A stretch of 64,000 nucleotides of DNA from Rosistilla carotiformis. GTDB taxonomy: Bacteria; Planctomycetota; Planctomycetia; Pirellulales; Pirellulaceae. The stretch lies in the NCBI RefSeq assembly GCF_007753095.1, contig NZ_CP036348.1, positions 248,001-312,000 of the forward strand, in the 5' to 3' direction. Below are positions 674 through 16,927 of this stretch, piece by piece. Position numbers and translations under genes: made by a program. The stretch's first letter is position 1; the number at the start of each line of letters is the position of its first letter. Below the pieces are notes generated by a model. It was not told where the DNA came from and searched no databases. It was given only the letters and a program-made list of their open reading frames with translations.

Positions 674-1070
674 CGTTGACCTTCGTTCGCACGCGAGATA
701 CCGAACTGTGCAGCCGAGAGAGTCGGCACACCTATCACTTCAAACCGTCATCGTCCGTTGTAAACGTGCAACTTGATTCGATCGTTAAAGTTTGCGCAAC
801 TGAACCCAGGCAGGGGGCGGTTTCGTGACCTATCGTTCAGTTTCCTGGCGAAACCACTCCGCTTGCTATCACAGATCGATCTTGATGTTGAATGCCCGAC
901 CGTCCTACAACCGTCGGTCTAAACGACTGATTCGATTGTGCGGCAAATATCCTTCGTAGCGGCACCGCGCGGCAGAACGACGCCGAAAGCGCTTGAAGCT
1001 TTCGAGTAACGATTCATAATGCCGAGAAGGATGTTTTCCGCAGATGGCACACGATAGGGAGATGGGTGCG
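674..1070. other. Intergenic region between divergent genes
   Basis: About 400 bases hold no convincing gene. It should contain promoters for the ExbB-like gene to the left and the secreted protein to the right, but no clear -35/-10 pair could be chosen. A small perfect hairpin, CGAAAGC and GCTTTCG with a 7-base loop, lies at 984-1004, about 70 bases before the right-hand start. Confidence 0.5.
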
Positions 1071-1418
1071 ATGCGGTTATGGCTGGGACTTGTGATTGCT
1101 GTCTTTACGCTCGTTTTGGCGACCGTTTCGCCCGGTTCGGGAGCGGGGGAGACGCAGGCGAAACCCGAGGCATCTCGGCCGGCTCTGGTGGCCGGAGCTG
1201 GAGAATTGCTGGGTTTTGTAAATCCTCAAGCAAATGATGGCCAGCAGATTACAATCGTAAATGCTACTCGCGGCACGATGCTGGTGTATCATATAGACGG
1301 ACCCACAGGTCAGATTACGCTGAAAAGCAGTCGTCGGCTGACCTGGGATTTTTCCTTAGACGAATACAACGCCACTGCGCCGCTGCCGACCGAAATCCGG
1401 CAGATGGTTGAGCGTTAG
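1071..1418 (+). CDS. Small secreted hypothetical protein
   Basis: The product is 115 residues from ATG 1071; an in-frame ATG at 1044 would add nine polar residues in front of the signal peptide, so 1071 is preferred. The N-terminus (MRLWLGLVIAVFTLVLATV) is a clear signal sequence. The mature part is small and polar, with a conserved-looking GxMLVYHIDGPTGQITL strand pattern and a Trp-containing segment near the end. No named family was recognised. It precedes the acidic HTH/membrane protein gene by 94 bases on the same strand, so the two may be cotranscribed. The function is unknown; export from the cytoplasm is the only safe inference. Confidence 0.65.
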   Translation: MRLWLGLVIAVFTLVLATVSPGSGAGETQAKPEASRPALVAGAGELLGFVNPQANDGQQITIVNATRGTMLVYHIDGPTGQITLKSSRRLTWDFSLDEYNATAPLPTEIRQMVER

Positions 1419-1512
1419 ACCGGTCGGTCTCCCGCTTGCCCGATGGCCGCCAGTGGAACGTGAATCAACATCGCGCTTCTCTCTTCCTTTTCAGACACTG
1501 GTTCGGTAGGTC

Positions 1513-3327: not shown

Positions 3328-3388
3328 AAGGGGAATAGAATCCGCGCGGCTCGCTGCGGATGTCCCTGCATTTTCCGTTCAGGCTTCG

Positions 3389-3718
3389 ATGATGAATCCC
3401 CCAGCCGTTTTTCTATTGTGCGTCGTGATGCTGTTACCAGCATCGACAGGCTGCAGCCTGTTTGGACGCGACAAAGCGGCTCAGCTGGAATCGGAATCCG
3501 AGCGGCTGCTCGCGGATTACCGCTACGAACGCGAGCGGGCCAACCGGCTGGAACTGCTCAATAACGTTTTGACCGAACGGGTCGAGAGCCTCGAGAAACG
3601 CTTGGCGATCCACGTCGATGGGGCCGAACCGACACCGGTCGCCGACCGCCGGCAACCGGTCGACTTTCCAAGCACCTCCCGCGCGGTCGATCCCTGGAAA
3701 CCAACCCTGCGGCGTTAA
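3389..3718 (+). CDS. Small coiled-coil lipoprotein-like protein
   Basis: This is a 109-residue protein starting at ATG 3389 (a second ATG follows immediately). It has a signal peptide ending in PASTGC, a lipobox-like site with Cys 22 as the probable lipidated residue, although the -3 position is Ser rather than Leu. Residues 30-70 form a predicted coiled coil (QLESESERLLADYRYERER and following heptads). The C-terminal 35 residues are proline-rich. It lies just after the acidic HTH/membrane protein gene. Its stop overlaps the stop of the convergent gene at 3715 within the palindrome TTAA. No named family was recognised. Confidence 0.65.
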   Translation: MMNPPAVFLLCVVMLLPASTGCSLFGRDKAAQLESESERLLADYRYERERANRLELLNNVLTERVESLEKRLAIHVDGAEPTPVADRRQPVDFPSTSRAVDPWKPTLRR

Positions 3719-4827
3719 CCAAACATCGTTTCGAGGCTGCGGATATAGTCGAGCGCATCGCCGACATCATCCACCTCCACTCCCTGCTGACGTCCCCGCC
3801 GATCGGCATCCGAGAGCGCCACCAAGTCGTCGTGCCAGGGATGTTCCACCAGTCGTCGACGGGCTCGGACGCCCAGTGTTCGATCACGCAACTGGTGCGC
3901 CAGCATATGATGTTCGATCAACCAAGCGGTTCGCGGTTGGATGAATCCATCGAGCGCTTCGAGCCCCGCAGCGACATGGTCCTGCGGATCGATCGCCTTG
4001 CCGACGTCGTGCAGTAGCGCCGCCAATAGGAAGTCCTCGTCGTAGGGCATCTCGTCGCGCGCGTGTTCGAAGACTTGCAAGCTGTGATAAAGTGCATCTC
4101 CCTCGGGATGATATTTCAGGTTTTGCTTGACGTTTTCCAGAGGCCACAGCAACGACTCGTACAATTGAAACCGATCGACTTGGCATTCGGCTTCTTCCAA
4201 CACGTGATCCTGCTGATCGATCGCCTGACCGTGTTCCCGTTCGATCAACTGCTGCAGTTGCGATAGCGTCGCGCGTTCGATCGCCTTCCCAGTGATCGAA
4301 CTCTTGAATCGATGTCCGATCAACGAGGGATGGTAGACTGTCAGTTCGACCGGAAATTCATCGCGGACATGAATGTGGGTAAAGACACGTTCTTCGCCAT
4401 CCTTACGAATCCGCTTACGCTCCATCTGGCAACCGCTCCCCGTCTCTTCGACGTGCATCAAGATCGACTGCGGGTTGCTGGCGAAGACATGGATGTCGAT
4501 GTCCGAACCATCGCGGACGTGCCCGGTCAGAACGCTGCCGATCAGATAGGGATGGAACGCCTGCAACTGACGCATCCACCAAAGAGCGCGCAGCCTCATT
4601 TTGTGCAGCCGCTGGGAATGCCCAAGATCCCCTTCATGCATCCGCGCCATCATCTGAACCTGGTCCCGGATCTCCGCATTACTCGGGAGATCGGCCGGTT
4701 TGACCCAAGATTTTTGAACCCGCCGCGCCGCCTTCAGCTTGGCTCGGTAGTATTCGGATTCTTCGTGATCGTACAGCAGCCGAGCTGCTTCCCAAGCGAT
4801 TGCATGACGCAATTTGGGTGATGCCAT
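3715..4827 (-). CDS. Nucleotidyltransferase-HD domain protein
   Basis: The 370-residue product starts at ATG 4827. Residues 96-115 carry a Pol-beta-type nucleotidyltransferase signature (GSVLTGHVRDGSDIDIHVF, with Asp 109 and Asp 111), and Glu 161 in PVELTVYH fits the third metal ligand. Residues about 245-335 form an HD phosphohydrolase domain (LLHDVGK with His 273-Asp 274, then DHVAAGLEAL). This combination occurs in CCA-adding enzymes and GlnD, but the order of the segments, the N-terminal helical region and the lack of an obvious tRNA-binding tail do not fit either one. Both active sites look intact, so it may transfer a nucleotide and hydrolyse it. The substrate is unknown. Confidence 0.8.
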   Translation of the reverse strand: MASPKLRHAIAWEAARLLYDHEESEYYRAKLKAARRVQKSWVKPADLPSNAEIRDQVQMMARMHEGDLGHSQRLHKMRLRALWWMRQLQAFHPYLIGSVLTGHVRDGSDIDIHVFASNPQSILMHVEETGSGCQMERKRIRKDGEERVFTHIHVRDEFPVELTVYHPSLIGHRFKSSITGKAIERATLSQLQQLIEREHGQAIDQQDHVLEEAECQVDRFQLYESLLWPLENVKQNLKYHPEGDALYHSLQVFEHARDEMPYDEDFLLAALLHDVGKAIDPQDHVAAGLEALDGFIQPRTAWLIEHHMLAHQLRDRTLGVRARRRLVEHPWHDDLVALSDADRRGRQQGVEVDDVGDALDYIRSLETMFG

Positions 4828-4943
4828 TTCGCGAGGCTCGAACGATGCGAGCCGGAAAGATCGAGTAACGGAAGGTTGTTGATGAAATTTACGGTAAATG
4901 ATCTCTCATGAAATATCAAGTGATTGAACAATGACCACGCATG

Positions 4944-4970
4944 CCCCATCACCGCATTGCCGTGATGGGG
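4944..4970. terminator. Hairpin, possible terminator
   Basis: A 9-bp perfect stem, CCCCATCAC and GTGATGGGG with a 9-base loop, lies between the ceramidase-like gene and the HD-protein gene, both on the minus strand. It is followed by TTTC on the plus strand and has no T-run on the minus strand, so terminator function is uncertain. Confidence 0.35.
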
Positions 4971-5015
4971 TTTCGATCGCTTGTTGCATCATGCGTAGCC
5001 GTTGCCCAACGGCAA

Positions 5016-6419
5016 CTATTTTAAATCCTGCATCAATTCTAGCAGGGTCTCGGTGATTCGGTCCGATGCGTCCAGTTGAACGCGGTTGGTTCCCATCCAG
5101 GTCTCGTAGCCGCCCAGTTTGTGTTGAGCCGGTGTGGGCAGGTAACCATAGCCGCCGTTGGCCAGTTCGATCGTGAAGGCGTCGCCATATGGAGCCTTCT
5201 GTTTGATGTCCAGTCCGATCTGCGTGAAGACTTCAAACGGGATCGCGGCGATCGCCAGGTCGCCGATCCGCACCGCTTGCAACAAAACATCCCATTGGTC
5301 GGGACCTTCCAGCAGTCGCTTGACGCGGCCGGCGTAAGTCTTCTGGTGTCGGTGGTACACTTCAGCCCCCTCGGGCAGCGCTTCGATCGACGCAAAGTAC
5401 TCCTGCATCGCGGCGTCCGGTTTTCGGACCTTCAGCGTCAGGTCGCGGTGAGCAACGCTCAACGGCACCCATTCCTGGAATTCGATCTTGGCGTGCGCGT
5501 CGATCACCTTGTCGGCTACTTTGTGCGCGACCTCGGTCATCTTTTCGTATGGCTTGTAGGGACGGCCGCGGTCGCGGAAGTTGATGTTGTTGACATCGCC
5601 ACTGGTGCCGTTGGTCAGGATCCCAACAAAAGGCTTGTCGCTGTCGGTTGCTTTTAATAGCTCGCCGATCCGCTCCGAAAAGACGCCAAAGTAATCGGCC
5701 GAGACCTCTCCTTTGCCCACGCCGCCGACGTAGTGCAACGAATAATTGGCCAACAGCGAAATCGGGCGGCCATCGATCGATTGAACGCTGATGAACGAGA
5801 TCTCGGGATCGACGGGGCCCGCCGGTTTGATCAAGGTCGGGTGACCGCTGGGTGGATTCATGCGAACCATATCGACGCCGCCAAACGGATTGCGACGCTG
5901 CTTTTCATCGCCGATGTGCCAGCGGCGGTTGAATACCTCCGACGGCTCCTCTCCCGAACCCCAGCCGATCTTTGCAGGTTCGAGATTCTCGATCGCTTCG
6001 GCGACCGCTTTAACGATTCCGGCAACCAGAATCGGGCGGTATTTTTCCGAAGTCGCTCGCGTGGCGCTGTGTGTGTGTGTTGCAGACATCAACAGATTTT
6101 CACCGGCGATCGCGCCGGCTTGATCGACCTGCTCGCGCGCTTCGTCCCAGATCTCGCGCGAAATCCCAACGTTATCGCAGACGACAAAACCGATCCGGTT
6201 CTTGCCGTCGTCCAGGATCAAACACTTCGCATGCAGCGGGTCGTGGATGTGTTGAGCGGGAATCGGAACCCAGTTGCCGACAACCAGTTCGCCAAGGGGC
6301 GGCGTGATATCGGCCATCGCAGCACCGGCGCGAAACGCTGGCTTTTCCGCGGCGGAGGCATTCAGTGGGGCGATCGCGGCGGCGATCAACAGCAGGCAAA
6401 ACGGAGCAAGACGCAACAT
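5016..6419 (-). CDS. Secreted ceramidase-like protein (neutral/alkaline non-lysosomal ceramidase N-terminal domain)
   Basis: The frame extends upstream to 6707, but ATG 6419 is chosen because it directly begins a signal peptide (MLRLAPFCLLLIAAAIAP) and is preceded by a purine-rich AAGGAAGAGG. The 467-residue product opens its mature part with FRAGAAMADITPPLGE, the typical start of the neutral ceramidase-like domain, and contains SATHTHSA (candidate metal-binding histidines), LLANYSLHYVGG and NGTSGDVNNI. Planctomycetes carry many paralogs of this family, and most have no tested substrate; hydrolysis of an amide in a lipid or polysaccharide is a guess. It lies downstream of the Crp/Fnr gene but is separated from it by about 350 bases. 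Confidence 0.85.
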   Translation of the reverse strand: MLRLAPFCLLLIAAAIAPLNASAAEKPAFRAGAAMADITPPLGELVVGNWVPIPAQHIHDPLHAKCLILDDGKNRIGFVVCDNVGISREIWDEAREQVDQAGAIAGENLLMSATHTHSATRATSEKYRPILVAGIVKAVAEAIENLEPAKIGWGSGEEPSEVFNRRWHIGDEKQRRNPFGGVDMVRMNPPSGHPTLIKPAGPVDPEISFISVQSIDGRPISLLANYSLHYVGGVGKGEVSADYFGVFSERIGELLKATDSDKPFVGILTNGTSGDVNNINFRDRGRPYKPYEKMTEVAHKVADKVIDAHAKIEFQEWVPLSVAHRDLTLKVRKPDAAMQEYFASIEALPEGAEVYHRHQKTYAGRVKRLLEGPDQWDVLLQAVRIGDLAIAAIPFEVFTQIGLDIKQKAPYGDAFTIELANGGYGYLPTPAQHKLGGYETWMGTNRVQLDASDRITETLLELMQDLK

Positions 6420-6765
6420 GGCGGAGACCTCTTCCTTGTTTCCTTCGAGAGTGAATTCGATCTGTAGGCAGGATGACAGATCCAACGCGATCGTGGTGAG
6501 AAGCGAGCCCGCAGGAGGAACGCCGGATCGACGAGGACTTTCCAGAGTATAACAGCCCGAACGGAGCGACGCCTCCAAGTTGTATGACAACATTGCCGAG
6601 TGGAGTCGGGGCTCAAGTTCCCGAAGCGGTTTTTGCTGGGCCGGGCGAGGCACGTTTTCCGCAGCGGGGTGGGGCTGTGGAGCACGCAGCGCGGATGACT
6701 GCGGCAAACGTCACGTTTGCATGACGGGCGTCTTCGTGGACCTTGCGGGAGTTGGTGGGGCGGTG
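6420..6765. other. Intergenic region between the ceramidase-like and Crp/Fnr genes
   Basis: No gene is supported here. The region should hold the minus-strand promoter of the ceramidase-like gene. Its most notable feature is the dyad at 6704-6720, listed separately. Confidence 0.5.
6704..6720. promoter_or_regulatory. 17-bp perfect dyad, candidate operator
   Basis: GCAAACGT, one central base and ACGTTTGC form a perfect inverted repeat with 8-bp arms. It lies 46 bases past the stop of a Crp/Fnr gene and about 285 bases upstream of the ceramidase-like start. Its sequence does not match the E. coli Crp or Fnr consensus. An operator for this or another regulator is possible but unproven. Confidence 0.35.
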
Positions 6766-7476
6766 CTAGGTGAGCAGTTGGTAGGGGATTTTGCGATGCA
6801 CGGTTTGCGAGAGTCGCTGCGGGTCGGTCAGTACGATCTTGCGGCGGCCGACGTGGATGAAACCTTCGGCACGCAGTTGGCCCAGCAGGATCGTGACGGT
6901 TTCTCGCGTGCTGCCTAGGAGATTGGCGATCTCCTGGTGGGCGAGGTTGATCCGCAGCCGGATCCCATCGTCGGCGACCGCCCCAAATTGTTCGGCGAGG
7001 TCGAGGAGCAGATGGATCAGCCGATCGCGGTTGGATAGGAATAACAAGTTCTTTAAGCGGCGTTCGATTCGGCTGCGCCGCAAGCCGATCATTTTTGTGA
7101 TGGCAAACGCGACGCCGCCGTGCTGCGACATCAGTTCTTGCAGTTCGACCGCAGGAATCATCACCACCGTCGCCGCCTCGACCGCTTCGACGTATTCCTC
7201 GCGCGCCGCATCGGCAAACAAAGCCAGCTCGCCAAACAGTTCCCCTGGCTCCACAAACGCCAAAATCGATTGCTTGCCATCGGGGGTGTGGTTGCAAACT
7301 TTGACCAATCCCTTGGTCAGCAGGAACACGCTGTCCGCTTTCTCGCTGGGAAGGTAGATCGGGCTGCGGGCTCGAAACGAACGGGAGCGGCTTCGCATTT
7401 CGAGCCGCTCGATCTGTTCTGGCATCAGCCGAGCGAAGAGGTCACAGTTTTTCAGGTGCCACATTTTGTTGGGCAT
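6766..7476 (-). CDS. Crp/Fnr family transcriptional regulator
   Basis: The 236-residue product has an N-terminal cyclic-nucleotide-binding fold (residues about 10-125, with GLVKVCNHTPDGKQSILAF and PGELFGELALF) and a C-terminal winged helix (residues about 165-225, with HQEIANLLGSTRETVTILL as the recognition region). PGELFGELALF resembles the Crp phosphate-binding cassette, but the usual Arg-Ser pair after it is not obvious. Only two cysteines lie in the sensor half, so an Fnr-type iron-sulfur cluster is unlikely. The effector is unknown. Upstream on the same strand is the triple YHS-like protein gene, which may be its target or operon partner. Confidence 0.88.
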   Translation of the reverse strand: MPNKMWHLKNCDLFARLMPEQIERLEMRSRSRSFRARSPIYLPSEKADSVFLLTKGLVKVCNHTPDGKQSILAFVEPGELFGELALFADAAREEYVEAVEAATVVMIPAVELQELMSQHGGVAFAITKMIGLRRSRIERRLKNLLFLSNRDRLIHLLLDLAEQFGAVADDGIRLRINLAHQEIANLLGSTRETVTILLGQLRAEGFIHVGRRKIVLTDPQRLSQTVHRKIPYQLLT

Positions 7477-7602
7477 ATCCGTGTCCTTTTGTTATTCGCA
7501 GCACGAGAAGGTCGGGGATGGATCGCGGTTGGCTCGCAGAACTCCCCTAGATAGACGCGTGAACATCGGTTGCCTCGCACACGAAAGCTCGAACTTCGTC
7601 AG

Positions 7603-8307
7603 CTAATTGAGTGGTGCGTTGCTGGGAACGGCGTATTTGGCTGGATTGGCGAGGAACATTTTTCGCTGCTCGTCGCTGGGGAAAAGGTACCGCAGGCCTT
7701 GGTGAACCGTCGCGATCTCCGGCTTTCCAGGCACATCCTTCTGCATCTCGACGCGGCAGACCGAACAGAGGCCGTTCATCGCGAGGTCGATGTTGGCGTA
7801 TTTTGTTGGGTCGGCTCGGAATGCCTCTTTTTGTTCCTCGCCAGGAAACAGGTACAAGCGGCCGCCGTAGAGGGCCGAGTGCTGAACCTTGCCAGGCATC
7901 CGCTGCGACATGTTGACCGAACAGACGGTGCAGTCGCCGCCCAACGCGGGGACGTACTTCGCGGGGTCGGCTAGGAACATCTGCTTCTGCTCTTCGCCAG
8001 GGAACAGATAGGTCTTCCCGTCGTAGTTCGCCTGGAACTGCGTCGTTCCACGAACCCACTTCTTCATGTCGATCACGCAAACTGGGCAATAGCCATCCAT
8101 CGCGATCTTTGCCTGTGCCATCCGACTCTGGCTGCCTCCCGCTGGCGGTTGAGCTGCGCGGCTTTGGCTGCCAGCATTCGCTGCCGGCGGGGCAGGGCGA
8201 GGGGCTCGCGTTCCCGATTGCGCATCGGCTGGCGGGGCGGCAATCAGGCAGGTCGACAGGGTGGCGGCGGTCAGGAGCGATCGAAGGCGGGTGCGTTGAT
8301 GCAGCAT
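7603..8307 (-). CDS. Secreted protein with three YHS-like CxxC repeats
   Basis: The 234-residue product has a signal peptide (residues 1-30) and an Ala/Pro/Gln-rich linker, then three tandem units of about 50 residues: 70-119, 124-171 and 177-226. Each unit begins with a Cys pair plus a Met (CPVCVIDM, CTVCSVNM, CSVCRVEM), continues with a tyrosine-rich strand (YDGKTYLFPGEEQK, YGGRLYLFPGEEQK, GLRYLFPSDEQR) and ends in FxADPxKY. This is the pattern of YHS-type metal-binding domains, here exported and triplicated. Binding of copper or another soft metal is inferred from the Cys-Met sets. It sits between an ECF sigma/anti-sigma pair and a Crp/Fnr gene on the same strand. Confidence 0.75.
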   Translation of the reverse strand: MLHQRTRLRSLLTAATLSTCLIAAPPADAQSGTRAPRPAPPAANAGSQSRAAQPPAGGSQSRMAQAKIAMDGYCPVCVIDMKKWVRGTTQFQANYDGKTYLFPGEEQKQMFLADPAKYVPALGGDCTVCSVNMSQRMPGKVQHSALYGGRLYLFPGEEQKEAFRADPTKYANIDLAMNGLCSVCRVEMQKDVPGKPEIATVHQGLRYLFPSDEQRKMFLANPAKYAVPSNAPLN

Positions 8308-8564
8308 GTAAAAGGCTTCCTTGAAGCGGGAGGGATGGTTTCAGGAATGGGGACGTTTCACCGGGGAGGACGGGGGGAGGCGGAGATCCTTACAGCGGGT
8401 GGGAAACTTTTTTGTCAGCCAGGCGACGACATCGCGCGATCGCTTACCAGCGACAAGGGAGGCCACGCGCAGAGAGCTGCGTCACCTTTGGATTGCTTGG
8501 TTGCAAATGGCTTGGCGGCGCGTGAGTCGCGCAGCGGAGAGAGGGCGAGCAGAGAGCTTCTCGC

Positions 8565-8825
8565 TCAGTCGTTGCGGGCTGCGATCGCTTGCTTGATCCG
8601 CTGGCGAGCTTCTGGAGAGAGCTTCGCTTGTGCGATGCTGGGATCGTTGTCGAATTCTGCCGCGTGCTGTTGGGTGCGGTGATGCAGCGAATCGACGTCG
8701 CGCCGGAATGCGGCGCACAGCCGACAGATCCGCAGATGCATCCACAGCTCGACCCGCTGCCGAAGCGTTAGCTTGGTTTCAAGCGAATCGGAGACGAGTT
8801 TGGTGATTTCTTTGCAGCTGAACAT
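8565..8825 (-). CDS. Soluble zinc-finger anti-sigma factor
   Basis: The open frame extends to 8876, but ATG 8825 is preferred because it overlaps the stop of the sigma gene in the sequence TAATG, which suggests translational coupling. The 86-residue product begins MFSCKEITKLVSDSLETKL and has the ZAS zinc motif HLRICRLC (H-x3-C-x2-C). It has no transmembrane segment, so it would act in the cytoplasm, in contrast to most membrane-anchored anti-sigma factors. It should sequester the sigma factor encoded directly upstream until a signal, possibly redox or metal acting on the zinc site, releases it. The role is inferred from family and context. Confidence 0.8.
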   Translation of the reverse strand: MFSCKEITKLVSDSLETKLTLRQRVELWMHLRICRLCAAFRRDVDSLHHRTQQHAAEFDNDPSIAQAKLSPEARQRIKQAIAARND

Positions 8826-9427
8826 TATGCGGGGGCGGGTTGGTCCCGGTCTTGGTTCCAGCGAGTTTTCATGCACTGCGCCAGACGAATCCGTGCCCGG
8901 TGAAGCAGGACCCAGAGGTTTGACGGAGTGATCGCAAGTTCCTTACAGATTTCTTCGGTTCCCATGTCGTCCATTTCCCGCAATGTAAACGCATCGGCTT
9001 GGTTCGTTGGCAAACCGTGGAGGCATTGCCGCAAGATTGGCCAAAATTCCTCCCGTTCGAGCGAATCGAGTGGTTGCATCAGGGTCGATCCAAGGCTTCG
9101 CTTCCAGTGCCCGCTGCGATCGAACATTTGGTCGATGGGGTCCCCTCCGTCCTCTGCGATCAAGTTTTCGGTCCGCTGGCGAACGCGAATTAGATCGATG
9201 ACCTTGCGTTTTAAGATGCCGGTCAACCAGCCCCGTTCGGTCCCTTTGCCGGAGAATTGTTGCACATGCTCCAAGCCTGCCAGGAACGTCTGCTGCACTA
9301 CCTCTTCCGCCGCTTCGGCGCTGCGCAACCGCGAGATGGCGTATCGAAACAAATAATCGCCATGTTCGTCGACCCAGTCTGCGGGGCGGAGCGGTGCATC
9401 GGGGGCAGGCTCTGCAGGAATGTCCAT
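8825..9427 (-). CDS. ECF-type RNA polymerase sigma-70 factor
   Basis: The 200-residue product from ATG 9427 (a TTG at 9436 is an alternative) has sigma region 2 near residues 20-90 (DEHGDYLFRYAISRLRSAEA, followed by EEVVQQTFLAGL and LKRKVIDLIR) and region 4 near 135-190 (LPTNQADAFTLREM, then EEICKELAITPSNLWVLLHR). It lacks region 1 and most of region 3, as expected for ECF factors. The stop codon overlaps the anti-sigma start. Its regulon is unknown, but the downstream secreted YHS-like protein is a plausible target. No autoregulatory promoter could be identified. Confidence 0.9.
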   Translation of the reverse strand: MDIPAEPAPDAPLRPADWVDEHGDYLFRYAISRLRSAEAAEEVVQQTFLAGLEHVQQFSGKGTERGWLTGILKRKVIDLIRVRQRTENLIAEDGGDPIDQMFDRSGHWKRSLGSTLMQPLDSLEREEFWPILRQCLHGLPTNQADAFTLREMDDMGTEEICKELAITPSNLWVLLHRARIRLAQCMKTRWNQDRDQPAPA

Positions 9428-9774
9428 GAATCTCAAACCGTGAATAGATGATCGCCATCGAGCGCTCTTATTGAACGTGATCCAGAGCCGTTGCGATGTG
9501 ATCTAGCTCACGATTCGTAGGCATCATAAACGAAATGCGTAGCAAGTGCCCGAAACTCAAGCTTCGGGCTACAGATTGTCGGCTTCGCATGCGTTTGTCG
9601 GCAGCTGTCATCGATCCGTCATCGCAGCGGGGAACGATCCTCGGCGTTTGCGAATACCGCCCAAGCCTGGCAGTCTGGATTTCCGGCGGCTTTCATCTAG
9701 GGGCGTCGTCGAGGACCGGTTTGCCCGAGGCATCGCCACGCTCGAATTAAAAGTTGTTGTTGGCTTGCCATGGT
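9428..9774. other. Intergenic region with a short palindromic repeat
   Basis: No gene is supported. It should contain the sigma gene promoter. At 9548-9569 a small hairpin GCCCGAA and TTCGGGC with an 8-base loop is embedded in a stretch reading like a dispersed planctomycete intergenic repeat. The rest shows nothing distinctive. Confidence 0.4.
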
Positions 9775-10461
9775 TCAAAGCTGGCTTGGGAAGGAGACCG
9801 AAACGGCGGAGCCTTCGGCGTATTGGACGTTGGCCGGCGTCTGCGTGTTGAGGAACGCAAACGCCTCGCCGTAGGTCGCTGCAAAGTCGACGTCGATTTC
9901 AAAATCTTCGATCTGACAGCATCGCCACTGAGGATGCCGGACCTCGTATTGCAGCGTTCGCCGAGGACCTTGGGAGTAGCCCCAGTAGTGTTCGGTGATG
10001 AATTCGCCAAGCGAGCCGGCGGGGGGAAGAACCAGTTCGGAATCGATGTTCGCAGCGAACCGGTTGTGCGACGCGTTTTGCCACGAGTACCAATGACGTT
10101 TGGGGTCGTTGCCGTGGTCCATTGGCACAGCGGCGTAGGTCTCATGGAAGAGGTTGTTTGCGATCAACGGAATGATCCGTCTGGGAACGAGCTCTTTGAT
10201 GAACGTGACAGCTCGAATCGACGGATCTTTTTTTGGGGAGACGTAGAACCGCAGATTCACCTCTTCGAAATGCCGATGAAATGGAATCGGGATGCCAGCA
10301 AGACGCGTCTCTTCAAACATGAAGGCGACAAGGCTGACGTAGATCTGACCCTCGAACGCGTCGATTTGCGTTCCCTTCGGAACAAACGGTTCCAGGAGGG
10401 CGGCCTGCACATTGTAGTTGGCAAGCAGAAGATGCTTCCAATGAGCCGTCAGGAACTTCAT
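9775..10461 (-). CDS. DUF2071 (YqjF-like) family protein
   Basis: The 228-residue product starts at ATG 10461 and follows the DUF2071 pattern: FLTAHWKHLLLANYNVQAAL at the N-terminus, the LLEPFVPKGTQIDAFEGQIY block, EVNLRFYV, and a C-terminal HYWGYSQGPRRTLQYEVRHP segment. These proteins are related in fold to acetoacetate decarboxylase-like beta barrels, but their reaction is not established. It is flanked by non-coding stretches of about 200-350 bases and has no obvious operon partner. Confidence 0.82.
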   Translation of the reverse strand: MKFLTAHWKHLLLANYNVQAALLEPFVPKGTQIDAFEGQIYVSLVAFMFEETRLAGIPIPFHRHFEEVNLRFYVSPKKDPSIRAVTFIKELVPRRIIPLIANNLFHETYAAVPMDHGNDPKRHWYSWQNASHNRFAANIDSELVLPPAGSLGEFITEHYWGYSQGPRRTLQYEVRHPQWRCCQIEDFEIDVDFAATYGEAFAFLNTQTPANVQYAEGSAVSVSFPSQL

Positions 10462-10669
10462 GGGTGTCTCGTTTGATACATCACCTGGAAGGGGCGAATC
10501 GCAGGGACTCGGTTCGTGGGAACCGAGTCGTACGCGTTGCCATCGGGCGTTGCGGCGCCGCTGGCAGGGAGAGGTATCCTAACGTATGACGTCCACCGAT
10601 GTGGCGGAGGGGGGCCAGGGTGCAGAAGGCTTTCGAGCGTTGCGGAATGCTTTACTCGAGAGGCCGAGA

Positions 10670-11140
10670 TCAATCCGTCAAATCGAAATTGATTTCGTTG
10701 GGGCCGGTGGCAACGGTCGCTTCGAGGCCGCTGGTAGTGGGACGGCTGTAGCGTTCGGGGACCAAGTACTTTGGTTTCTGTGGAGCAGTCTGTTGTTGTT
10801 GGCCTGTGTAGTTCGGGTCGTCCTCTGTCAGCATCGCGTTGTCGAGCTTTTCGCGTTTGACGACGGTCACTTGATAATCGCCAATTTTTGTTCCTCCCGG
10901 GATGCTGGCCGAACTCAATTGGTAGCGGCCGTCTGGGGCGGTCTTGCCAACGGCGCTGAAGCCCGTCTGGGAGCGAAAGGTGACCACCGCGTCGGCAACG
11001 GGGCTGCCTTGATAGGTGACCACGCCTTCGACGGCAGCTGCATCTTCGGGGAGGCCGCTGGATCCACAGCCTGTCATCATCGCTAGTGCGAAGGTCGCGG
11101 TGATCGCTGCGCTGTTATTTGCTAATTTTTTTAAATTCAT
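10670..11140 (-). CDS. Small lipoprotein with carboxypeptidase-regulatory-like fold
   Basis: ATG 11140 gives 156 residues; a GTG at 11152 could add four more. A lipoprotein signal ends near ALAMMTGCGSSG. The mature part begins with VEGVVTYQGSPVADAVVTF and DGRYQLSS, the pattern of carboxypeptidase regulatory-like or transthyretin-like beta-sandwiches. The C-terminus (LVPERYSRPTTSGLEATV) is typical of the small planctomycete lipoproteins that accompany DUF1559 genes. Such a gene lies directly upstream on the same strand, with a strong terminator in between. A similar pair occurs at 41394-42877. A role at the cell surface is inferred; none is proven. Confidence 0.8.
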   Translation of the reverse strand: MNLKKLANNSAAITATFALAMMTGCGSSGLPEDAAAVEGVVTYQGSPVADAVVTFRSQTGFSAVGKTAPDGRYQLSSASIPGGTKIGDYQVTVVKREKLDNAMLTEDDPNYTGQQQQTAPQKPKYLVPERYSRPTTSGLEATVATGPNEINFDLTD

Positions 11141-11151
11141 CGTTTGGGACA

Positions 11152-11194
11152 CTTATAAAAATTCGCAAGCCAGCCACTGGTGGGCTGGCTTGCG
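11152..11194 (-). terminator. Intrinsic terminator after DUF1559 gene
   Basis: A 12-bp perfect stem (CGCAAGCCAGCC and GGCTGGCTTGCG, 7-base loop, 11164-11194) is followed on the minus strand by AATTTTTATAAG. It lies between the DUF1559 stop at 11248 and the lipoprotein start at 11140, so it may act as a partial terminator that sets a lower level for the lipoprotein. Confidence 0.75.
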
Positions 11195-11247
11195 AGTGGA
11201 ATGGGGATGGAAACGAAGGGTTTGGGGGCGGAAGTGCAAGGACTCGT

Positions 11248-12285
11248 CTAGATTCCCGCAGTCGGTTCTCCGCCCGCTTTGCTACCCATGGCACCCCAGA
11301 TGCCATAAGGGCTGAGCCCGCTCGTTCGTTCCGGTTGGCTGAGGTCGCCGGTGTCGATCGTTTCGGCGACGAAGTGAGTGGAGCCGTCGGCACGCAGTGT
11401 CATCACGCCGCCGGGGTGGTTGCTGGTAGGTGTGATCACCGAGGTGACGCTGTCGCCGCTAGAGCTGGTTCCATCGGCACAGCTGGCCGAGTTGGGGGGC
11501 AGTACTGTGTTGAAGCCGGCCCGTTCGGCTTGCCCATCGGCAAGCCACCATCCGCCGCGTCCTTTGACGACGCTGGCATCCAGGTAGAACGTGCCATCGG
11601 TCTCGGCCAGGCAGTTCAGTGGGCTCAGTTGGATATCCGCGACGCCTGTGGTGACTCCTTCCGCGACTCGGATGGTTCCGGTTCGGGTTCCTTGGCTGTA
11701 GGAGTTCACCTTCCGTTCGCTCATCGCGATCGTGTTGCTGGTACCGTCGAGGATGTCGCGAAATCGGCTGCCATCCCGTTTTGCAAAGACTCCGCGGACC
11801 GAGGTCGCATCGCGGGTGCTTCCCATTTGATCGCCGAGACTGAATCGGTAATTGAAGTGGTTGGTTTGGTTTCCGGAGAAGTTATCCGAGGGGCAGTGCA
11901 GCATTTCGGGGGCAACGTTCCACGGTGTCCAGGAGTCCCAGGTGTTGCCGCCGAACGGAGGCCTGGTGCCATCGCCTGCGGCGATCTGGTCGTACATCGG
12001 CCCTTGTTCATAGAACGGCATCAATGGAATCAGCCCGTTCAAGCGGCCATTGTTCTGGAAGGTGCCGCTGGTCGTTCCGGTCGCCCGGGGAACAAAGCTG
12101 CCGTGGGTGTCGTGGTAATTGTGCAGTGCGAGGCCGAGCTGTTTCATGCTGTTGGAGCACTGCATTCGCCGCGCTGCTTCGCGAGCGGCTTGGACGGCGG
12201 GTAGCAGCAGGCCGACCAGGATGCCGATGATCGCGATCACGACGAGAAGTTCAACGAGTGTAAAGGCAGAACGGGATTGTTTCAT
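11248..12285 (-). CDS. DUF1559 domain protein with prepilin-type N-terminus
   Basis: ATG 12285 is chosen because it starts [20 protein letters not shown], the prepilin-like cleavage and hydrophobic helix. The open frame upstream lacks that logic. The product is 345 residues. The helix continues into [16 protein letters not shown], the hallmark of the DUF1559 family, and the C-terminus carries the H-x9-DG motif (HPGGVMTLRADG). These proteins are very abundant in planctomycetes and resemble type II secretion/type IV pilus pseudopilins at the N-terminus; their role is not established. The paired lipoprotein gene follows downstream. Confidence 0.92.
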   Translation of the reverse strand: MKQSRSAFTLVELLVVIAIIGILVGLLLPAVQAAREAARRMQCSNSMKQLGLALHNYHDTHGSFVPRATGTTSGTFQNNGRLNGLIPLMPFYEQGPMYDQIAAGDGTRPPFGGNTWDSWTPWNVAPEMLHCPSDNFSGNQTNHFNYRFSLGDQMGSTRDATSVRGVFAKRDGSRFRDILDGTSNTIAMSERKVNSYSQGTRTGTIRVAEGVTTGVADIQLSPLNCLAETDGTFYLDASVVKGRGGWWLADGQAERAGFNTVLPPNSASCADGTSSSGDSVTSVITPTSNHPGGVMTLRADGSTHFVAETIDTGDLSQPERTSGLSPYGIWGAMGSKAGGEPTAGI

Positions 12286-12833
12286 GGGATGGATGCCAAA
12301 ATGGGGGGGGCAGGGATAAAGCGGCGCAAAACGAAGCACTCGCGGACATCGGAAGAGCTGGTGTGTGTTGCAACACGAGCACGGTTGCACGTAGCCTTCG
12401 CTGGACATCGGGTGGGGAGCGTGCACTGAATGCACGCAAAATGCGCCGCAGCGGGTGTTTATCTTCCTAAGCGAATCTATTCTAGAACCCGATGCGATGA
12501 CCGCAATTGTCAATGTGGATCGTTGGGGTTGGCCAGATTGGCTGGTTTCTGCTTTTGTGAGATTCAGGTGGAGGGCGATGGCCCCGTTTGTTTCAGTTGC
12601 GTCGACAGAGGTAGCATCGTGTCGATGCGGTGCGGTCTGCCGGTTTCTTCCGCTTCCCCTGGATCGGTGTATCGCGCCGGCGGGGTGCTAGGTCGCGCCG
12701 AAGTCAGTGAGCGGTCTTTCTGTCCCAAATCGCTTTGTCGATACGATGTCGATCGCGGCGTTTGTCGGTCGACTACTTATAGGTAGAGAGCCTCTCGGGC
12801 GACTTCAGAATCAACCCTTGCGGAAACAAAGCG
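12286..12833. other. Long intergenic region between divergent genes
   Basis: About 550 bases hold no convincing gene; the open frames here have atypical composition. It must contain promoters for the DUF1559 gene (left) and the VOC gene (right). A perfect 12-bp palindrome, GTGTTGCAACAC at 12365-12376, lies about 80 bases upstream of the DUF1559 start and could be an operator. Nothing else stood out. Confidence 0.4.
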
Positions 12834-13301
12834 ATGCAGATTGCACAAAAGATCACTCCGTTTTTATCTTTCGAAAATTGCGCCGAAGCGGCGGCGAACT
12901 TTTATGTCTCGGTCATTCCCAATTCGAAAATCGTGCGGGTCTTGAAGCACCCGGCCGAAGGCAATGTGTTGACCGTTGATTTCGAATTGGCCGGGATGGC
13001 GTTTGTCGCCCTCAACACCGGACAGCCGTGGCAGTTCACTCCTGCCTTCTCGATGTCGGTGGGGTGCGATTCGCAGGAGGAGATCGATCGGCTGTGGAGC
13101 GCTCTGAGCGAAGGCGGCGCTGAGGTACAGTGCGGCTGGCTGACCGATCGGTTTGGCCTCTCTTGGCAGATCGTGCCGGCGCAGATCGGCCAGTGGATCA
13201 ACGATCCCGATCCGGCGGTCGGCGCTCGTGTGCTCGAAGCGGTTTGGCAGATGACCAAGCTCGACATGAACCGGCTACAAGCGATTTACGAAGGCAAGTG
13301 A
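12834..13301 (+). CDS. VOC superfamily protein (PhnB/3-demethylubiquinone methyltransferase-like)
   Basis: The 155-residue product starts KITPFLSFENCAEAAANFYV, the usual opening of PhnB-type VOC proteins, and has FELAGMAFVALN, the DSQEEIDRLWSALSEGG helix and the DRFGLSWQIVPAQI motif near the end. This fold is a pair of beta-alpha-beta-beta-beta units and often acts as a metal-dependent or ligand-binding enzyme; despite the common database label, it is not a methyltransferase by structure. The substrate is unknown. It stands alone, divergent from the DUF1559 gene and convergent with msrAB. Confidence 0.85.
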   Translation: MQIAQKITPFLSFENCAEAAANFYVSVIPNSKIVRVLKHPAEGNVLTVDFELAGMAFVALNTGQPWQFTPAFSMSVGCDSQEEIDRLWSALSEGGAEVQCGWLTDRFGLSWQIVPAQIGQWINDPDPAVGARVLEAVWQMTKLDMNRLQAIYEGK

Positions 13302-13458
13302 TTGTTCCCTTTTGGGGGCAATTCGAAGCGAGGCTGCGACGCTTCTCCCTGCGGTGCAAAAAGCTTGTGGCCGCGAGAAACGCAACCGCCAAGCCGTAAC
13401 ATCCATAATGTTTCTGTCTTCGTCGAACGGCTTCCTGGAATCTCGAGCGAGGATGGGA

Positions 13459-14607
13459 TTAAGGCGACTCCGCAAACTCGGCGTAGCCTTGGCCCTCGAG
13501 TTCATCGGCAGGAATGAAGCGGAGGGCGGCGGAGTTCAGGCAGTACCGCAGCCCGTTCGGTTCGGGGCCGTCGCTGAAAACATGTCCCAGGTGCGAATTG
13601 CCGTGTTTGGAGCGGACCTCGGTGCGCGGCAGGATCAGCTTGTAATCGGTGTGTTCGACGACGTTATCGCGGACCAGCGGGCGAGTGAACGAAGGCCAAC
13701 CGGTCCCCGATTTGAACTTGTCCTTGGAACTGAACAATGGCTCGCCGGAGACGAAGTCGACATAGATCCCCGCCTGTTTGTTGTCCCAGTAAGTGTTCTT
13801 GAAAGGCGGTTCGGTGGCGTCCTGTTGCGTGACGCGGTACTGCAAATCGGTCAGCTTGTCGCGCAGCACCGTTTCGCTGGGGCGAGAATACCGGCTGCCG
13901 GCGTCTGCCGAATCGGTGCTCGCTGCAGCGGCGGCTTTTGTTTTGGGGTGGTAGTTGCGGTCGTCTCCCCAGGCCGCATCGATGAACTCGTCGCGTCCCG
14001 ACATGCGTCGGTAGAAGCTGTATCGCAACGGATTTTTCTTGTAGTAGTCTTGGTGATAGTCTTCGGCCAGGTAAAAAGTCGAAGCGTCTTGGATCGGCGT
14101 GACGATTTCTTTCTCGAAGCGTCCCGATTCGGCGAGCTGTTGTTTCGAGGCGGTCGCTTGTTCGCGTTGCGCGTCGTTGGCGACGAAGATCGCCGACGTG
14201 TAGGAGCTACCTTGATCGACAAACTGGCCGTAGCGATCGGTCGGGTCGATGTTCCGCCAGAAGATCTCCAGCAGGTCCGAGTAGGCGATTTGGTTTGCAT
14301 CGAACGTCACGCGGACCGCTTCGACATGTCCGGTGTCGGTATGCGAAACCTCTTCGTACGTGGGGTTCTTCTTATGGCCGCCAGTGTAGCCCGATTCAGC
14401 GGCGATCACGCCGGCTTGCTTCTCGAAGGGGGGCTCCATACACCAAAAGCAGCCGCCAGCGAATATAGCGGTTTCGATTTTTGCGTTGGCGGGGATGTTG
14501 AGCTGTTTGCTGGAACTGGAGTTCCGGTCGCCGGCGATCAACCAAACCGAAAACCCTGCGATCGCGAGCAATGGAATCAAAAAGAGAAACGTGCGTTGCC
14601 TGGTCAT
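13459..14607 (-). CDS. msrAB: Bifunctional methionine sulfoxide reductase MsrA-MsrB, membrane-anchored
   Basis: ATG 14607 gives 382 residues starting with a hydrophobic anchor ([20 protein letters not shown]). MsrA occupies about residues 45-210 with the catalytic motif [11 protein letters not shown], and MsrB about 240-375 with [20 protein letters not shown] and the catalytic Cys in [11 protein letters not shown]. Together they would repair both the S and R forms of methionine sulfoxide in exported proteins. The zinc-binding CxxC pair of many MsrB proteins is replaced ([13 protein letters not shown]), so this MsrB is likely zinc-free. The anchor suggests action on the periplasmic side. It appears monocistronic. 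Confidence 0.93.
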
Positions 14608-15025
14608 GGATGAATCTCCCAAATAAAGGCTAGGTACTGTCTGTACCCTATTGGGACGGAGCCATCGCAGGATTCTTACGCAAAATATGTTCAGAAAGTC
14701 ACCGATCCCCCGCGGTAAGGTGGTGCGTGTTGTTTGGGAGTGGCGACGTCGCCCCGGAGGGGGCAGCATCGGTAGCTCGGGGCGAAAGCTCGAGATGAAG
14801 GCGTGACTGTAGTGCTACGCAGTTAATCCCGTTCCTGTCGCTCTGAATGTCAGGGCATCAGTTCTTGGGAGCCCTGCTGGAGCGCTTGCACGTTGCATCG
14901 TCCTACGGGCCCGTTGACTTGGCTTTTGAACGGTCAGAGTTTCGCGTGAAAACCAGCTGTTTTGTGGATGTTCGCTTCTCCATTTGTTGAATGTTCTGGA
15001 GCGGAGCGGATTCAACAGGGGCTTC
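14608..15025. other. Intergenic region downstream of the HIRAN gene
   Basis: About 420 bases without a supportable gene separate the HIRAN gene from msrAB. A 6-bp stem CAGGGC/GCCCTG with a 14-base loop lies at 14851-14876. No copy of the tRNA-Val 3' end, and hence no clear attachment site, was seen here. Confidence 0.4.
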
Positions 15026-15793
15026 TTAACGCGGAACCAAACTGGAAATCGGTTGGTAGTCGACGGTGTCGCAAGGCTGGAAACCGGCCGGCCAGCAGGC
15101 GTTCATCCGGCACAGCAGGCGTTGTTGCAGCGGTGCATCCAGATTCACTTGTTGTACGACAACGCGAACTGTTTCGGCGGGGCATTGGCTGAGCAGTCGT
15201 TCGATGTCGCGAGCCAGATAGCGAGGGGTGTACCCGAGCATCGATCCATTCGCTTCGAGAGCGATTGCATGCGGGTCGATGGGGTTTTCAGGTTCCTGTC
15301 GTACGGTGAGTGAATCGCCAGGATGCAGGTGAGAGATCCGTTCCGCGGCAGTAGGCTGGAAGCGAATTCCGTGGACAAAGAAGAAATTGACGAAGCAACC
15401 TTGGGAATCTGGCACCGGCTTGGGGAAAACTTCGATTGCATCGGTCTTGCGGATTCCTTCGCTTCGCCCCAATAGAAGCAGTGGTTCGGGCGGGTCGTCG
15501 GGGTCGAAACCATTCCACTCCAAAAACTGCCGGAACTCGGGGCGCGAAGCGGGTAGCAAACGGTTCTTGAATACTGGGAAGAGGCTTGTTGACTCGTAAA
15601 CCTGGTGCAGATCTTCCATGCCGTCCAACGGACGGAACCCTTCGATCGATCGGGCCCCTTCGGTGTAGCTGAAGCGAAAGCGACGGTCCCCCAGTTCGCT
15701 GTAGAGGCAATCGAGGCGGGCGACGGCGGCCCAGCGAGGCATCGGCTGTTCAGCATGCCAGGCAACGAAGACGGTTTGGTTGGGGGGAGTCAT
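15026..15793 (-). CDS. HIRAN-domain protein with HipA-N/HipS-like N-terminus
   Basis: The 255-residue product starts at ATG 15793, overlapping the stop of the kinase gene by 4 bases (ATGA), which indicates one operon. Residues about 134-205 match the HIRAN domain: GCFVNFFFVHGIRF, HPGDSLTVRQEPENPIDPHA and GSMLGYTPRYLARDI. HIRAN domains bind DNA ends or damaged DNA in other proteins. Residues about 1-125 (FRFSYTEGA, then SLFPVFKNRLLPASRPEF and PLLLLGRSEG) resemble the small N-terminal subdomain of HipA, which HipBST systems encode separately as HipS. That second assignment is by pattern only. It could restrain or target the kinase encoded upstream. Confidence 0.75.
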   Translation of the reverse strand: MTPPNQTVFVAWHAEQPMPRWAAVARLDCLYSELGDRRFRFSYTEGARSIEGFRPLDGMEDLHQVYESTSLFPVFKNRLLPASRPEFRQFLEWNGFDPDDPPEPLLLLGRSEGIRKTDAIEVFPKPVPDSQGCFVNFFFVHGIRFQPTAAERISHLHPGDSLTVRQEPENPIDPHAIALEANGSMLGYTPRYLARDIERLLSQCPAETVRVVVQQVNLDAPLQQRLLCRMNACWPAGFQPCDTVDYQPISSLVPR

Positions 15794-16770
15794 AAGGTGG
15801 CGATGAGGTTGAGCAATCGGGTTCGATTAATCTCCAGCAGTCGGATTGTAAACTCACGAGCTGTTAGAGAGATGCGCGATTCGGGGACTCTGTTAACGAT
15901 ATCACTCAATTTATGTGGCGACAAATGCTGGAGTCTCTGCAGCCAGATCGTCGCCGCTTGAATGTTTCGTTGCGAGAACGCTTCGGCCGCATCGTAGGTG
16001 GTGATCGTTCGTGTGTCTTGAGAGTTGCGGAAGAAAGCAGATCGCGCACGCGACGTGTAGGCGTCCATTTGCCGCTGTGAATCGCCAGCGTCCAGTCTTC
16101 GCCGTCGCTTGAGATCCGTTTCGTTCCGTGCCAAGCCTGCCCCGTGGTCGAAGGTCGGAGCAAGTTGCGTCGTGTCACCGCGGACCGCACCCCAGTTTTG
16201 GTGATGGCGATCTTGGTTTGCTATCAGTGCGTCGAGGATCGTGTACCCAATAAATACCGCTCCCGCCGAGGATGCCTCGTGGGGAACCGAAGCGATTTGA
16301 TCGGGAGGGGCGAGTTTTGAAACGACTTCCCAGACCGCGTCGACAGTGTGTTCTTGCACGCTGTAGTGTTTCTCATCAGCGCTCGGGTATGCAGGATCGA
16401 CTTCCAGCAGGAGTTGGTTGCCAAGGATTAGGCTTCGTGGTTTGGCAGCGATGTTCTGGCAGATCACGCCAGGTAGGTTTTGGTGGGTGTCAAAAGCCAG
16501 TTCGTAGTGTACGTGAGGAAGTCCTAGTTCTTGACAGATTTCGCAGGCGATGCGTTCGGCCCAGTCTTCGCCGGTTTGGCGGTTTTCTGCCTTGAACATC
16601 ATTCGCCGGTCACCGTCGTGGTACCAGTACTTGGGTTTGGTTCCCAGTTGCTCCAGGTCTTCGGAGTCGAGCGAGCTAACTTTGTAGATCGGAAAGCTTG
16701 CCACGGTTGTTACCCAAGTGTAGAGGTCGTCGCCACCTTGGCATGTTAAGCCTTGACGTGCTTCCTTCAA
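15790..16770 (-). CDS. HipA-like Ser/Thr kinase catalytic protein
   Basis: The longest frame starts with TTG 16770 (326 residues); GTG 16704 is an alternative, and neither has a clear ribosome-binding site. The product contains only a HipA C-terminal-type kinase domain: KPKYWYHDG and MMFKAE (Lys 60 as probable ATP ligand), the catalytic loop NQDRHHQNWG (Asp 187, Asn 192) and a metal-binding FDHGAGL (Asp 208). All key residues appear intact. It lacks the N-terminal HipA subdomain, which seems to be in the downstream HIRAN protein. No HipB-type HTH antitoxin is adjacent. It lies directly after tRNA-Val and its terminator, a frequent insertion position for mobile genes. A toxin or defence kinase is plausible but unproven. 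Confidence 0.8.
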   Translation of the reverse strand: MKEARQGLTCQGGDDLYTWVTTVASFPIYKVSSLDSEDLEQLGTKPKYWYHDGDRRMMFKAENRQTGEDWAERIACEICQELGLPHVHYELAFDTHQNLPGVICQNIAAKPRSLILGNQLLLEVDPAYPSADEKHYSVQEHTVDAVWEVVSKLAPPDQIASVPHEASSAGAVFIGYTILDALIANQDRHHQNWGAVRGDTTQLAPTFDHGAGLARNETDLKRRRRLDAGDSQRQMDAYTSRARSAFFRNSQDTRTITTYDAAEAFSQRNIQAATIWLQRLQHLSPHKLSDIVNRVPESRISLTAREFTIRLLEINRTRLLNLIATL

Positions 16771-16793: not shown

Positions 16794-16830
16794 AAAAAAG
16801 CCCTGGCTTCGCGGGGAAGCCAGGGCTTTT
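16794..16830 (-). terminator. Intrinsic terminator of tRNA-Val
   Basis: A 12-bp stem (AGCCCTGGCTTC and GAAGCCAGGGCT, 5-base loop) lies 28 bases past the tRNA. On the minus strand it is followed by six T residues, a typical intrinsic terminator. It also separates the tRNA transcript from the HipA-like kinase gene. Confidence 0.85.
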
Positions 16831-16854
16831 CGTGTTTTTGTTTTGCGGACAAAT

Positions 16855-16927
16855 GGGCGTTGAGGGACTCGAACCCCCGACCCCCTCGGTGTAAACGAGG
16901 TGCTCTAACCAACTGAGCTAAACGCCC
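16855..16927 (-). tRNA. tRNA-Val (anticodon UAC)
   Basis: The minus strand folds into a complete 73-nt cloverleaf: acceptor GGGCGTT/AACGCCC, D-stem GCTC/GAGC, anticodon stem CCTCG/CGAGG with loop TTTACAC (anticodon TAC), variable loop of 5 and T-arm with TTCGAGT. No CCA is encoded. It reads GUA and, by wobble, other Val codons. Confidence 0.97.

Follow-up and report, generated by a model that had tools for sequence, protein, structure and literature searches.

The window, meaning the whole 64,000-nucleotide stretch analysed here, corresponds to positions 248001-312000 of the single-contig 7.44 Mb host chromosome, which the nearest named relatives place among the planctomycetes, and contains a two-gene unit on its minus strand (the strand of all features below unless stated otherwise). 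The upstream gene, hipI (15790..16770), is an open reading frame of 326 codons from a TTG codon that is predicted to encode a HipA-like Ser/Thr kinase, and the downstream gene, hipN (15026..15793), encodes a 255-amino acid protein with predicted HipS-like and HIRAN domains; both assignments draw on the open reading frames, Pfam, PADLOC and fold models. The ATG start codon of hipN overlaps the stop codon of hipI by four bases (ATGA, 15790-15793) and the two genes therefore lie in different frames, such that the four-base overlap described in a first-pass annotation of this DNA is present but its description of the genes as in frame is incorrect. As that annotation also stated, the pair lies directly downstream of tRNA-Val(tac) (16854..16927), which is on the same strand, 83 bases before the TTG codon of hipI, and whose 3′ end constitutes an att core in the sister genome G002. 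The intervening 83 bases contain a 15-pair terminator-like hairpin (16796..16830, strand not assigned), and a sigma-70 promoter scan of the locus found none against 0.8 expected. Past hipN lies a methionine sulfoxide reductase gene (13459-14769), and the rest of the window resembles core chromosome, with genes for ribosomal protein S21, an rRNA dimethylase, a release factor and MutL, among others. Base composition gives no island signal, as GC content is 0.55-0.57 across the pair and 0.54-0.61 in its surroundings. When the 50 other ORFs of the window were compared with PADLOC, two families were matched by one ORF each, namely mad2 (E 2.8e-19) and CARF_LolE (E 3.7e-13). The pair thus stands alone, a feature that we count against the interpretation favored below.

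HipI matches the PADLOC model PDC-M03A (E 5.3e-105) and Pfam HipA_C, the latter with an E-value of 7.9e-6 but a score of 26.1 bits that falls under the cut-off of 30.5; it is the sole HipA_C match in the whole genome, and NCBIfam models matched neither protein up to E 1. Asp187, Asn192 and Asp208, which the first-pass annotation had singled out as intact HipA catalytic residues, are present and are identical in 63 of 63 aligned kinases, where they belong to a conserved catalytic and Mg-binding stretch (D187-D208, DRHHQN ... FDHG; 16147..16212). The Gly-rich loop region (E40-K47, including T44; 16630..16653) is similarly conserved, with E40, G43 and K47 kept in all 63 kinases and position 44 occupied by T or S in 61 of them. 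Searched against solved structures, a profile of these 63 kinases matched CtkA (E 2.5e-12) and HipT (E 0.013), and an AlphaFold2 model of HipI (pLDDT 90.8) matched CtkA with a Z-score of 27.0 across 270 residues, HipT of Legionella with 18.8 and HipA with 17.5. The fold match is broad beyond CtkA and HipT, because phosphatidylinositol 4-kinases come next at Z 16.1, hardly under HipA. The CtkA match lies well above those to HipT and HipA, and CtkA may itself be a HipI-type kinase without a partner. N-subdomain 1 is missing from HipI and model residues 24-326 span the core shared by CtkA, HipT and HipA; as modelled and aligned, HipI has the fold and the catalytic residues of this kinase group and is thus a putative kinase. 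The TTG start codon is doubtful because residues 1-20 have a mean pLDDT below 50 and alignments to homologues mostly start around residue 24, and a GTG at 16704-16702 (codon 23) is the likelier start of hipI.

The first-pass annotation had read the downstream protein as a HipS-like part joined to a HIRAN domain, a reading with which Pfam, PADLOC and the predicted fold all agree. HipN scores above the Pfam cut-off for HIRAN (E 4.5e-10, 39.7 bits, cut-off 24.7), matches PADLOC PDC-M03B (E 9.1e-82) and yields a model with a pLDDT of 95.2 that splits into two domains. The HipS-like domain, residues 5-126 (15416..15781), superposes on Legionella HipS over 101 residues (Z 11.7, rmsd 2.0), on E. coli HipS (Z 10.5) and on the N-terminal part of HipA (Z 10.1), the structure matches being 7vkb_B (Z 11.7), 8ezr_A (11.4), 7ab3_E (10.5) and 2wiu (10.1). 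The HIRAN domain, residues 129 to about 246 (15056..15409), superposes on the HIRAN domain of HLTF (Z 11.3) and on lp_0118 (Z 13.9). Foldseek gave E-values of 2.8e-3 for HipS and 2.4e-5 for lp_0118, and a sequence profile of the HipS-like part found no match to solved HipS structures, with two unrelated hits up to E 10, which also weighs against the interpretation favored below. No natural fusion of HipI and HipN was flagged in 128 loci; a 573-amino acid frame in one locus (L041) is no more than a long open frame, with the kinase in a separate ORF.

Residue conservation in HipN bears on how each domain might act. In HipBST, neutralisation requires Trp65 of HipS, a residue held as a wedge by the Gly-rich loop of HipT (PMC10627512). 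HipN possesses an Arg84 (codon 15542..15544) that is invariant in 87 of 87 aligned HipN rows and sits where a loop joins helices one and two of the HipS-like domain; based on this placement by secondary structure in the model, we propose it as a candidate kinase-blocking residue and putative counterpart of Trp65. Asn170 and Asp173 of the HIRAN domain are conserved in 86 of 87 rows. Arg144, matched by eye to a contact residue of HLTF, is kept in only 71 of 87, and the site of HLTF Phe142, also aligned by eye, is apparently Pro221 in HipN and is proline in all 87 rows, so binding of duplex ends may have been lost, a further point against the interpretation favored below. Characterised HIRAN domains bind DNA ends, and this phenylalanine is absent from most HIRAN domains of bacteria, which may bind single strands (PMC8262856), a remark that Pro221 would fit.

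The place beside tRNA-Val differs among the three genomes of the genus, two of which possess the pair. In sister genome G002, about 13.1 kb separate tRNA-Val from hipIN, and a 20-base repeat of the tRNA 3′ end bounds this stretch. This element, which spans 203-13362 of locus L032 between the tRNA and the sister's hipIN, codes next to the tRNA for a tyrosine-recombinase-like protein (Phage_integrase E 1.2e-5, just under the Pfam cut-off) and also for an MmeI-type restriction enzyme and a DnaB-like helicase. In sister genome G001, hipIN is absent and genes for an acetyltransferase and a di-haem oxidoreductase lie between tRNA-Val and msrAB; an ORF with short peptide repeats (L029, 4260-4916) occupies the place that hipIN has in the window genome. 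The element of G002 and the gene content of G001 thus indicate that the place is variable and is used for integration. Across 80 homologous loci, a tRNA lies within 1 kb of the pair in 7, against an expectation of 1.2 based on the remainder of these sequences (p 3e-4). The first-pass suggestion that tRNA-Val is an insertion site is therefore borne out by the sister genome and by this enrichment, but not by the window itself, in which the att core occurs as a single copy at up to 3 mismatches and no integrase was found, either among the four neighbours of the pair that were scanned or, for all 50 ORFs, among the best 25 of 79 Pfam families. That the window pair is cargo of an intact tRNA element is accordingly unsupported.

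Beyond the genus, the module is patchily distributed. The kinase was detected in 15 of 147 relatives (14 of 110 genera), in 12 of 392 genomes of a phylum sample and in 23 of 397 genomes of a class sample, while the HipN model matched 20 of the 392 phylum-sample genomes, 11 of these matches extending over four fifths or more of the model. This patchiness rules out a conserved housekeeping locus, a finding that the first-pass annotation had named as fatal to its own reading. In 122 of 128 loci, kinase sequence precedes HipN at a distance of up to 400 bases (of the others, four had no match and two were at a contig edge), and homologous loci outside genomes comprise 48 in viral contigs, eight plasmid records and five phage records. 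A 14-kb Vibrio virus of the Vinavirales, Vibrio phage 10N.286.55.A12_PE001 (L182, 10953-13770), which has a note of a PM2-like capsid protein, carries hipIN as its final cargo next to the integrase, and three further Vibrio records of similar size match it. In Clostridioides phage phiCDKH02 the pair also adjoins the integrase. On the mobilizable Nostoc plasmid pn5 (L224, 217-7877), hipIN adjoins DUF499 and DUF1156 proteins, and a Mycolicibacterium vanbaalenii plasmid (L184, 4100-4678) encodes a HIRAN protein amid insertion sequences, with no kinase annotated beside it.

Clustering of neighbouring genes and Pfam searches revealed type I restriction genes beside the pair (HSDR_N, E 5.6e-50; N6_Mtase with HsdM_N; Methylase_S). 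Of 258 nearest-neighbour ORFs, 21 of more than 900 amino acids were left out and 237 were scanned with Pfam; as neighbour families were the 25 most frequent in each batch, HsdR was counted by a separate profile search. Type I genes directly adjoin 24 of 80 genome loci, a raw count for which we expect the base rate at random loci to be very low. In 14 of the 80, same-strand HsdS and HsdR genes flank the locus at up to 700 bases, HsdS upstream and HsdR downstream, with hipI between them in 13 and missing in L057; the remaining type I loci comprise eight with HsdR alone, one with HsdR whose upstream side is cut off and one with HsdS alone. Neither HsdS nor HsdR adjoins the pair in 50 loci, and six are cut on one side. 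The spacing is tight, as the hsdS-hipI gap is -9 to +4 bases in 12 of 14 loci (179 in L089; L057 has no kinase) and the hipN-hsdR gap is 14 to 63 bases in 21 of 23 (302 in L057, 495 in L070). The 24 loci belong to Planctomycetota (17), Verrucomicrobiota (3), Pseudomonadota (2), Bacteroidota (1) and Bipolaricaulota (1), and none of the 48 viral loci has type I genes beside the pair.

In a rapidly built tree of HipN, the restriction label requires 13 changes, at least six of them forced by well-supported branches, compared to 21 in shuffles, and 23 of the 24 type I loci fall in one of the two main HipN clades; restriction linkage has been gained or lost repeatedly, yet it is clustered. The nearest relatives of the window pair (L054-L056) lie outside type I operons, and L055 (6194-7960) and L056 (7820-8932) are near stand-alone relatives located beside a HerA-type ATPase (DUF87) and a YhcG/DUF1016 nuclease. 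L057, which belongs to a five-row group with the window (SH-aLRT 99), reads hsdM-hsdS, about 500 bases without a kinase, hipN and hsdR (6585-13010). This restriction operon has lost the kinase but retained HipN, raising the question of whether HipN can act on restriction alone. HSDR_N has no match in the window's own genome, compared to matches in 9 of 14 control genomes, so the window copy must work without type I restriction.

If HipI is a toxin and HipN its antitoxin, decay of the pair should be polar. We scored 42 different genomes found via the kinase, judging both genes by one rule in which an intact gene covers at least 88% of its profile in one open frame; three genomes in which the pair is cut by a contig end were set aside. 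Among the 39 assayable genomes, both genes are intact in 30, the kinase is broken and HipN intact in eight, both are broken in one, and the reverse pattern never occurs (sign test 8 to 0, p 0.008; length-weighted, 0.0085 one-sided), with these p values serving as a guide because the genomes are related. Scoring worked against a toxin-antitoxin reading, in that the kinases of L009, L207 and L215, for which searches of the relatives or of the class sample had reported a stop, and of L013 (91%) were counted as intact. The 80 loci sampled via HipN, which were excluded from the test because such sampling favors intact HipN, comprise 58 with both genes intact, 15 with a broken and three with an absent kinase beside an intact HipN, and four cut at a contig end; L131, whose kinase was scored absent, lies at a contig edge. 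Some of the breaks may be errors, as most homologous loci are metagenome assemblies. In viral loci, both genes are intact in 47 of 48. Between the window genome and G002, dN/dS is 0.20 for hipI and 0.05 for hipN, and both genes are under purifying selection between the two species. Overall, the decay pattern agrees, indirectly, with a kinase toxin and a HipN antitoxin.

HipA-type kinases are classic persistence toxins whose trigger is a standing question, and an inhibitor that carries a DNA-end-binding domain would be a direct candidate for such a trigger. Our preferred reading, to which we assign a probability of roughly one half, is that hipIN is a toxin-antitoxin module in which HipN keeps HipI inactive and releases it when HIRAN binds DNA ends. 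By analogy with the shared fold of HipS-HipT, the HipS-like domain would dock over the Gly-rich loop of HipI and block its use of ATP, with Arg84 as the proposed contact. The HIRAN domain would sense DNA 3′ ends or single strands arising from phage DNA injection, replication or cutting, and its binding to DNA would loosen HipN from HipI; the released kinase might then phosphorylate a target essential to the cell, which by analogy would be a tRNA ligase, and the resulting growth arrest would abort the infection. Many relatives carry the module between hsdS and hsdR, at a point where cutting would generate ends, whereas the window copy is alone beside tRNA-Val. This context hints at a growth-arresting back-up to restriction, and the recurrent placement would tie the module to a specific origin of DNA ends and to a known strategy, the guarding of a restriction system by PrrC. 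A more specific version, which we offer tentatively, is that hipIN is a restriction-coupled suicide switch and a kinase-based counterpart of PrrC: HIRAN would respond to the ends that HsdR generates, or to a DNA-mimicking anti-restriction protein, and the kinase would be freed when restriction alone fails, with stand-alone copies sensing phage DNA ends directly.

Some of the same observations could be accounted for by a plain addiction module, in which hipIN stabilises its host prophage, plasmid, island or restriction operon and HIRAN regulates expression or stability only, without any infection being sensed. The pair is indeed cargo of viruses, plasmids and restriction operons, it is enriched beside tRNAs and its decay resembles that of toxin-antitoxin systems. 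Against such a module, characterised HIRAN domains bind DNA ends (PMC8262856), Asn170 and Asp173 are well kept in HipN and the pair persists in two species outside any recognisable element, and we regard this explanation as rather doubtful.

Two further explanations place the function of HipN elsewhere. Eukaryotic HIRAN recruits enzymes to damaged DNA, and HipN could similarly be a targeting subunit rather than an antitoxin, one that takes the kinase to DNA ends or forks where a DNA-bound target, such as a phage replication protein, is phosphorylated. The almost constant pairing of hipI with hipN would suit this role, but a targeting subunit should not outlive its kinase as HipN does in 8 of the 39 genomes, with no case of the reverse, and the HipS fold is a kinase inhibitor fold; we find this explanation improbable. 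Retention of HipN without the kinase, which we count against our preferred reading, might also point to an independent role for HipN, for instance in dampening type I restriction or in repair through the binding of DNA ends, with the kinase as an optional extra. The arrangement of L057 favors this possibility, as do L063, L070, L079 and L094, in which HipN is kept by HsdR while the kinase is broken or absent. Given that the kinase is intact in 58 of 80 loci and that 50 of 80 have no type I gene beside the pair, an independent role for HipN is to our minds the least probable of these accounts.

Among known systems, HipBST likewise places the kinase and the HipS fold on separate chains, and in it HipS blocks HipT (PMC10627512, PMC9325769). 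It differs in that hipB, encoding a helix-turn-helix (HTH) protein, and hipS lie upstream of the kinase, whereas here the HipS-like gene lies downstream and tRNA-Val upstream; HipN moreover has an added HIRAN domain, with Arg84 as a candidate for the role of Trp65. The first-pass annotation had also pointed out the lack of an HTH antitoxin, and no HTH HipB gene lies directly beside the pair; together with gene order, this rules out membership of HipBST. Membership of hipBA is ruled out as well, as no hipB adjoins the pair and the kinase has no N-subdomain 1 in the same chain. The nearest solved kinase by both sequence and fold is CtkA of Helicobacter pylori. HipAD, a HipA-kinase pair distinct from hipIN, confers phage protection that requires its catalytic residue (PMC13092281), and HipA-HIRAN pairs adjoin deoxydinuclease genes in Gram-positive bacteria, where they are called predicted defence genes (PMC11706625). 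PrrC, which is linked to type Ic hsd loci, and RloC, which linear DNA or breaks activate, both target translation (PMC3874168); they are comparable in how they work only, being nucleases with ABC-ATPase domains rather than kinases and having no family relation to hipIN. Both component models of PADLOC-DB PDC-M03, a candidate defence system by name only, match the two adjacent genes.

Judged by its sequence and modelled folds, the pair is a hipIN-type module as already published by Gerdes, Baerentsen and Brodersen in 2021 (PMC8262856), who named the arrangement, placed HipI in clade XI of their Hip kinase tree and described HipN as a putative antitoxin with HipS-like and HIRAN domains. It shares with theirs a short HipA-fold kinase without N-subdomain 1, a Thr beside the Gly-rich loop, conserved Gly-rich loop, catalytic and Mg-binding residues (here across the 63 aligned kinases) and a downstream gene for the two-domain protein. 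These authors also suggested that phage DNA ends release the kinase and lead to abortive infection, so the first-pass reading holds but is not new, as both the anatomy and the DNA-end trigger are in print. In the literature available to us, we found no experiment on hipIN (toxicity, binding or phage), although other HipA-kinase tests cited in PMC13092281 may include one, and no report of hipIN inside type I restriction operons; the main text of PMC8262856 mentions neither Planctomycetota, restriction genes nor tRNA genes. Relative to that published system, what is new here is the placement of the pair within type I restriction operons, the use of tRNA-Val as an integration site in a sister species, the patchiness of the pair and the polarity of its decay.
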